Shown one piece after another: positions 5,439 through 8,795 of a stretch of 41,899 nt of DNA; positions within the stretch are counted from its first letter, which is position 1; each line of letters opens with the position of its first letter. Where the stretch lies: contig CAITMG010000039.1 of assembly GCA_903893445.1 (NCBI GenBank), positions 1 to 41,899 on the forward strand, written 5' to 3'. Both the position numbers and the translations under genes were made by a program. The notes below the pieces were generated by a model. The model did no database searches, was not told the DNA's origin, and saw only the letters and a program-made list of their open reading frames with translations. This DNA is from Candidatus Uhrbacteria bacterium (lineage in GTDB: Bacteria; Patescibacteriota; Patescibacteriia; 2-12-FULL-60-25).

Positions 5439-5490
5439 ATAAGGCAGTAGGCGGTAGGCAGTAGCTACGGCCTACCGCCTACTGCCTTAT
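5439..5490. repeat. Inverted heptamer (GGCRGTA)3-GC-(TACNGCC)3 palindrome
   Basis: ATAAGGCAGTAGGCGGTAGG / CCTACCGCCTACTGCCTTAT, perfect 20-bp arms with 12-nt loop. Confidence 0.9.
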
Positions 5491-7562: not shown

Positions 7563-7606
7563 GTAGGCAGTAGGCGGTAGCACGCTACAGCCTACTGCCT
7601 ACGGCC
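7563..7606. repeat. Second inverted heptamer palindrome (GGCAGTA GGCGGTA .. TACAGCC TACTGCC TACGGCC)
   Basis: GTAGGCAGTAGG / CCTACTGCCTAC perfect arms; shares GGCAGTAGGCGGTAG with 5439-5490. Confidence 0.85.
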
Positions 7607-8492: not shown

Positions 8493-8578
8493 ATAGTTGT
8501 CATCTCTCAGCCCGTCTGATACAACTCCGTCACGAACGACGCGTCAACGCAAATTATCTTCACAGATAAAATGCCGTT

Positions 8579-8604
8579 GGCCTGGCGCTCGCGAGCGCCA
8601 GGCC
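8579..8604. repeat. 26-bp perfect palindrome overlapping the 5' end of tRNA-Thr
   Basis: GGCCTGGCGCTCG/CGAGCGCCAGGCC. Confidence 0.9.
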
Positions 8605-8677
8605 GTTGTAGCTCAGTTGGTAGAGCATTTCCATGGTAAGGAAAAGGTCACCGGTTCAAATCCGGTCAACGGCTCCA
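8602..8677 (+). tRNA. tRNA-Thr (anticodon GGT), CCA encoded
   Basis: GCCGTTG/CAACGGC acceptor; GCTC..GAGC D stem; TTTCC-ATGGTAA-GGAAA anticodon arm; ACCGG-TTCAAAT-CCGGT. Confidence 0.93.
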
Positions 8678-8678
8678 T

Positions 8679-8765
8679 GGGCAGGTACTGAAGCGGTCAA
8701 ACAGGACAGACTGTAAATCTGGTGGCCTTGCGCCTTCGAAGGTTCGAATCCTTCCCTGCCCACCA
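8679..8765 (+). tRNA. tRNA-Tyr (anticodon GTA), long variable arm, CCA encoded
   Basis: GGGCAGG/CCTGCCC acceptor; CAGACTGTAAATCTG; GGTTCGAATCC. Confidence 0.95.
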
Positions 8766-8795
8766 AAAACACAGCTCCAAAAGAGCTGTGTTTTT
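8766..8795 (+). terminator. Terminator starting immediately after tRNA-Tyr CCA
   Basis: AAAACACAGCTC-CAAAA-GAGCTGTGTTTTT. Confidence 0.9.

Follow-up and report, generated by a model that had tools for sequence, protein, structure and literature searches.

The window analysed here is a stretch of 41,899 nucleotides from a Candidatus Uhrbacteria genome (contig CAITMG010000039.1), and the subject of the analysis is a short GC-rich palindrome located at the 5' end of its tRNA-Thr(GGT) gene. The original prediction, made by reading the letters of the window, described a palindrome inserted at this tRNA end between two copies of a 7-bp direct repeat, and positions 8573-8608 read GCCGTTG-GCCTGGCGCTCGCGAGCGCCAG-GCCGTTG exactly as claimed. 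The perfect palindrome is slightly longer than was given there, extending over 26 bp (8579-8604, GGCCTGGCGCTCG/CGAGCGCCAGGCC) and covering the first three bases of tRNA-Thr (8602-8604). Bases 1-7 of the tRNA (GCCGTTG) are present twice, 29 bp apart, and when 29 bp are taken out in silico an ordinary leader and an intact tRNA-Thr are obtained. The notion of a singular insertion is rejected, as the window copy belongs to a dispersed family of palindromes.

A search for the palindrome elsewhere, as suggested in the original prediction, gave a divided answer: the exact sequence was found only at the window locus, and searches with relaxed cores revealed the family. The 20-bp core occurs once in the window (0 chance matches in 100 shuffles), and the window palindrome with up to three mismatches has one site in the 1.19-Mb genome. 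The tip CGYTCGCGARCG has nine sites in this genome compared to three for the reversed control, and among them are several long palindromes of the form CACGNCGYTCG.CGARCGNCGTG, one of which lies at the 3' end of tRNA-Ser(TGA). This is the usual form of a family consensus with the core GNCGYTCG.CGARCGNC. In the window's taxonomic family, 22 of 41 genomes have the consensus, and a single genome can have as many as 35 copies. At class level it was found in 57 of 381 genomes and at phylum level in 21 of 380, and the reversed-pattern control gave 0 at all three levels. The occurrence is patchy, even between close relatives. Because long frames are often spurious here, nothing could be learned from a crude test for intergenic placement (42 of 106 copies versus 495 of 1060 random positions). 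No published account of the element was found in the openly licensed texts searched, including none for Patescibacteria, and the palindrome is apparently an undescribed DNA element of ~22 bp that is scattered through this phylum.

Several copies in one genome, G057, are associated with larger repeats. One of these, ~140 bp long and with both a half-degenerate and an intact palindrome, is located beside tRNA-Ser genes and elsewhere (L109, L110, L111, L118, and L120), and in L118 and L120 it is followed by an identical stretch of 165 bp that runs to the end of the fetched sequence or contig. At other G057 loci (L108, L112-L114, L116, L117, L119, and L122-L126) the palindrome lies within copies of another dispersed repeat (GTCATTGCGAGGAGTCCGACGA...GTGGCAATCTGCTTA).

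Three further tRNA genes of the window genome carry the insert. The tRNA-Leu(TAG) gene has the same geometry as the tRNA-Thr site, TTTTAT-GCCGCGG-[GCACGTCGCTCGCGAGCACCGT]-GCCGCGGTGG, in which a 22-bp insert is flanked by a 7/7 duplication of the tRNA start (GCCGCGG). A scan of tRNA 5' flanks determined that a palindrome also lies flush with the tRNA-Met gene, ATGCCGATGGCACGGCGTTCGCGAACGCCGT|GCCGGGG, with the same 22-bp spacing and an outer copy that matches at 5/7 positions. At the 3' end of tRNA-Ser(TGA), TCCGCCA is found on both sides of the insert. Additionally, contig C22 of this genome has a degenerate member of the family, accompanied by a GCTTGCC duplication (L042, ~1376-1402), ~50 nt upstream of tRNA-Pro(CGG).

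The length of the insertion was determined by comparing the left and right flanks of 121 de-duplicated copies at offsets 22-37, with chimeras whose left and right halves came from different copies as the null. Of these copies, 35% had a run of at least 5 identical bases at offset 28, compared to 3.8% under the null, and 16% had one at offset 29 (null 3.4%); values at the remaining offsets were close or equal to the null. A later set of 22 copies, fetched afterwards from outside the window's family and in many cases from outside its class, had repeats at offset 28 in 16 cases (null 5.9%). In these counts, full independence does not hold for copies that share a tRNA type or that come from congeners. 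The net insertion is therefore 28-29 bp, consisting of the ~22-bp element and a 6-7 bp duplication; for targets that themselves end in CA, a duplication of 8 bp can also be counted. A target-site duplication of near-fixed length, which is a feature of miniature inverted-repeat transposable elements, is found in this family.

About a fifth of the copies (25/120) lie at tRNA ends, and their position there is nearly invariant. Fifteen copies are found at 3' ends, and each has its palindrome centre 9 nt from A76; of the 10 at 5' ends, 8 have the centre 10 nt from G1. Annotated tRNAs neighbour 10 of the 22 copies in the later set, without exception at 9 nt (3') or 10 nt (5'). Four of the 25 copies (L001, L002, L012, and L043) were found by tRNA-directed searches, so the tRNA-end fraction is slightly inflated and the distances are unaffected. 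When the spacing was left free (2-30 bases between the core and TAGCTCAG, 381 genomes), six sites were found, five with equal spacing and one that was 1 base shorter. A direct repeat of the tRNA end surrounds the insert at the 3' ends of the tRNAs for Val, Trp, Asp, Ser, Leu, and Tyr and at the 5' ends of those for Thr and Leu, and the palindrome alone, with no integrase-bearing cargo, lies between the repeats. The duplicated bases track the tRNA: CCCACCA (Val, Leu, Tyr), CCTGCCA (Trp), CCCGCCA (Asp), and CTCCGCCA (Ser). At 3' sites the element contributes its initial CA and the duplication the remaining bases, which regenerates the CCA end, and at 5' sites tRNA nucleotides 1-7 are retained. 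A tRNA regenerated in this manner would explain why insertion is tolerated beside essential tRNA genes.

Some unusual tRNA genes and tRNA-like sequences were also observed. Tandem tRNA-Thr-like genes with expanded anticodon loops (L002, 1314-1389 and 1410-1483; L003, 1410-1485), to which ARAGORN assigns the four-base anticodons ggct and ggtc, are located directly upstream of a normal tRNA-Thr in G025 and G012, and one of them has the palindrome at its 5' end. In L198 (~400-490) a tRNA-like sequence that is not called as a tRNA has the family palindrome on its 5' side and a different palindrome, TCCGCCAGCTGGCGGA, at the expected D-loop. In L023 (~1490-1590, G020) the inverted repeats GCCTGGTACG / CGTACCAGGC flank tRNA-Thr and would lengthen its acceptor stem.

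Empty sites were examined in relatives, a check that the original prediction had proposed. All but two of ~29 distinct tRNA-Thr(GGT) loci are without the palindrome, and the two filled loci are those of the window genome and of G017, where a member of the palindrome family occupies the same position. Neither of the outcomes that had been named as telling against insertion, a palindrome conserved in all relatives or the lack of empty sites, was found. A second case is tRNA-Trp, where an insertion is common to two congeners and the site is empty in another genus of their family (CCCCTGCCA|AGAAAG). The proposal that GCCGTTG is a target-site duplication is supported by these empty sites together with the clean 29-bp removal, the tRNA-Leu replicate, and the repeats at offsets 28-29 across more than 100 copies.

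The stem of the palindrome has been maintained. The arms are paired in 86-100% of copies out to position 13, and pairing falls to 21% at position 14. The covarying arm positions 4, 7, and 12 are paired in 98, 98, and 95% of copies, compared to 47, 56, and 47% when one side is shuffled. Positions 12-13 lie outside the conserved 22-mer and their bases vary by site, yet they are still paired (95% and 86%), and at tRNA-Trp sites the right-hand copy deviates from the tRNA sequence exactly at the base needed for pairing. The stem is kept through site-specific changes and thus hairpin formation appears to matter for insertion or maintenance of the element. The pairing at positions 12-13 may reflect the choice of target, a copying step at insertion, or the subsequent correction of palindromes that were imperfect.

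The duplication offers two alternative strands for pairing with CAACGGC, as had been pointed out in the original prediction, and this is correct by sequence. When 8573-8677 is folded, the structure with the upstream copy as a decoy acceptor strand is preferred (-49.4 kcal/mol versus -40.8 kcal/mol with the proper acceptor stem). The decoy also dominates in the folding of 8560-8765 (0.97-1.00 for the first five pairs) but other structures take over in 8493-8677, and the prediction therefore depends on where transcription starts. It is hypothesized that the hairpin or the decoy strand could affect the cleavage of pre-tRNA-Thr by RNase P. More speculatively, selection against the decoy could lie behind the weak outer repeats seen at certain 5' sites (Met, Phe).

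The coordinates of the features at this locus are included in Table 1. The upstream neighbour of the palindrome and tRNA-Thr is a gene for a TPR protein, and the relatives of the adjacent protein are found in Candidatus Uhrbacteria and other Patescibacteria. Two more intergenic palindromes, composed of GTAGGC(A/G)GTAG units, are located in the window at 5439-5490 and 7563-7602, with arms of 26 bp and 19 bp. These represent a second dispersed type of palindromic repeat that is unrelated in sequence to the palindrome at tRNA ends.

Table 1. Features at the tRNA-Thr(GGT) locus, in window coordinates.
Feature	Position	Strand	Remarks
Outer (upstream) 7-bp direct repeat, GCCGTTG	8573..8579	+	Preceded by AT, as in many intact tRNA leaders of relatives
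Inserted palindromic unit of 22 bp, GCCTGGCGCTCGCGAGCGCCAG	8580..8601	.	Geometry as for GCACGTCGCTCGCGAGCACCGT at tRNA-Leu(TAG) of the same genome
Full perfect palindrome of 26 bp, 13-bp arms	8579..8604	.	Arm pairing across the family also stops at 13 bp
Inner direct repeat, tRNA-Thr nucleotides 1-7	8602..8608	+	
tRNA-Thr(GGT) gene	8602..8677	+	ARAGORN; Rfam RF00005, 73.4 bits
tRNA-Tyr(GTA) gene, directly 3' of tRNA-Thr	8679..8765	+	Thr-Tyr pair kept in most relatives
Inverted repeat AAAAACACAGCTC/GAGCTGTGTTTTT with T-run at its end	8765..8795	+	Probable terminator of the tRNA pair

The related copies, their exact position at tRNA ends, the direct repeats, the empty sites, and the pairing kept by two-sided changes are best explained by a dispersed, non-autonomous mobile palindrome of ~22 bp that occurs across Patescibacteria, duplicates a target of ~6-8 bp, and favours tRNA termini; we assign this explanation a probability of roughly 0.84. 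We infer transposition as the route and a hairpin (single-stranded) intermediate. A putative recombinase would insert the palindrome and duplicate ~6-8 bp of target, so that 28-29 bp are gained overall, and GC-rich sites where the mature tRNA sequence begins or ends would be strongly favoured. At 3' sites the terminal CA of the element would restore the CCA end, and at 5' sites its terminal G would become G1. The duplication and the terminal bases of the element would keep the tRNA intact, so that the insertion is tolerated. At the window locus, insertion would have occurred at the 5' end of tRNA-Thr(GGT) with duplication of nucleotides 1-7. A bolder version can be proposed, in which a gene-less 22-bp palindrome, among the smallest integrating DNA units known, is taken up as a single-stranded hairpin by a recombinase that recognizes mature tRNA termini, and the feet of the stem are re-made for each target so that the host tRNA is always regenerated; we regard this version as possible but doubtful.

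Several results weigh against a mobile element. Neither the association with Y1_Tnp genes nor the tracing of a gene-bearing parent through the G057 half-sites yielded a mobilizing gene; some of these half-sites lie within the ~140-bp repeat, and no recognized transposase or gene-bearing parent was found there. Neither excision nor movement was seen, and there was no strain-level pair of empty and filled sites for the tRNA-Thr locus. Nearly half of the copies have no clear direct repeat, and the outer repeats are poor at some 5' copies (Met, Phe). The window copy departs from the usual consensus at two paired positions (arm positions 9-10), so its membership in the family rests on the core, the geometry, and the replicates in the same genome and not on the strict pattern. 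Finally, the palindrome and duplication at tRNA-Trp are identical in two congeners whose flanks are only ~79% alike, which hints at selection or conversion and not neutral decay; some copies may accordingly have become useful or be homogenized.

The tRNA-Trp identity is also what would be expected of a conserved RNA hairpin, a leader or trailer selected for its role in pre-tRNA folding or in RNase P or 3'-end processing and not mobile at all, and the two-sided changes that keep the stem as well as the exact position relative to the tRNA point in the same direction. Such a hairpin, however, would not be expected to be missing from nearly all orthologous tRNA-Thr genes, to occur mostly away from tRNAs, or to lie at the 5' end of some genes and the 3' end of others, and the direct repeats at fixed offset mark an insertion. 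We consider this explanation improbable. The suggestion that the upstream gene ends at this hairpin as an intrinsic terminator, or that the palindrome arose by chance, has a negligible probability: a GC-rich hairpin does lie between the TPR-protein gene and the tRNA, but related sequences recur genome-wide with duplicated targets. The terminator was rejected at the locus itself, where there is no T-run and the tRNA gene directly follows the hairpin, and it is refuted for the family by the copy number, the repeats, and the tRNA geometry.

Other known routes of mobility were also considered. Carriage by phages, plasmids, or viral contigs was rejected, as matches to the palindrome there did not exceed the chance level. 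If the palindrome were a repetitive extragenic palindrome (REP) or REPIN moved by a REP-associated tyrosine transposase (RAYT), an IS200/IS605-like Y1 transposase, its size, palindromy, dispersal, and compensatory changes would be accounted for (PMC3116915, PMC3733652). The palindrome is fully paired, with no unpaired GTAG or CGTC tag, and Y1_Tnp (PF01797) genes are not enriched, being present in 8 of the 22 genomes that have the palindrome and in 6 of the 19 that lack it. A lack of any Y1 gene where the palindrome was recently gained has largely been observed (e.g., G014, G016, G023, and G024). Y1 transposition is not known to produce target duplications, which also counts against this origin, and we judge it highly improbable. 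A tyrosine or serine recombinase could instead have inserted the 28-29 bp unit (an 11-bp arm, a 6-7 bp spacer, and an inverted 11-bp arm) at tRNA ends as a cargo-less attachment site or minicircle. Such an insertion would be a specific case of the mobile palindrome proposed above, and its probability was assessed separately. Tyrosine recombinases have overlaps of 6-8 bp, favour tRNA ends, and leave directly repeated spacers, all of which counts for an attachment site, and the net insertion equals arm, spacer, and arm. The net lengths of 28-29 bp (11 + 6 or 7 + 11) have the layout of a recombinase core site, but the spacers vary with the target and the layout is therefore only a suggestion. The spacer follows the target at each site, unlike a fixed attachment core, and no cargo-bearing version was found; an attachment site is rather unlikely.

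Several genomes are known to contain mobile palindromes of very small size. How these move is a long-standing question, and the reaction is constrained here with unusual clarity, since the lengths of the insertions are exact, the targets are duplicated, and the distance to tRNA ends is fixed. The presence of a strong hairpin and a decoy acceptor strand beside essential tRNAs poses a problem, open to testing, for RNase P and 3'-end processing in minimal-genome cells. The small dispersed repeats of cyanobacteria discussed by Elhai et al. in 2008 are reportedly very small mobile bacterial repeats as well, some of them located in structural RNA genes, and the hosts differ.

REP and REPIN sequences resemble the Patescibacteria palindrome in being short dispersed bacterial palindromes with compensatory stem changes and probable passenger mobility (PMC3116915, PMC3733652). 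The stem of a REP has a GTAG tag at one foot that is left unpaired, and REPs are associated with RAYTs (PMC3733652, PMC3116915), whereas the palindrome described here has no conserved GTAG at the stem foot of the listed copies and no RAYT association, duplicates a target of 6-8 bp, and strongly prefers tRNA termini. The CGTC-tagged repeats (dRS3, RPE-4, and RPE-6) are likewise short palindromes without a known dedicated transposase, and CGTC is also found in our consensus (PMC3733652). Their CGTC tag is unpaired and accompanies a stem of 8-9 bp, AT in the first two positions, and a loop of 4-5 (PMC3733652), whereas here CGTC lies inside the fully paired stem of a near-perfect 26-bp palindrome, the stem and loop are different, and there are duplicated targets and placement at tRNA ends. 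Dada DNA transposons (PMC3706591) also target small RNA genes, including tRNAs, with target duplications of 6-7 bp, but they are eukaryotic, gene-bearing, and inserted inside the RNA genes and not at mature tRNA ends. The nearest analogues are the GC clusters of yeast mitochondria, which are tiny gene-less GC-rich palindromes with short direct repeats and variable copy number (PMC4478555). The best-studied of these clusters is 42 bp long with flanking repeats of AG or ACT (PMC4478555), whereas the palindrome of the Patescibacteria is ~22 bp long, makes duplications of 6-8 bp, lies at tRNA ends, and is bacterial.
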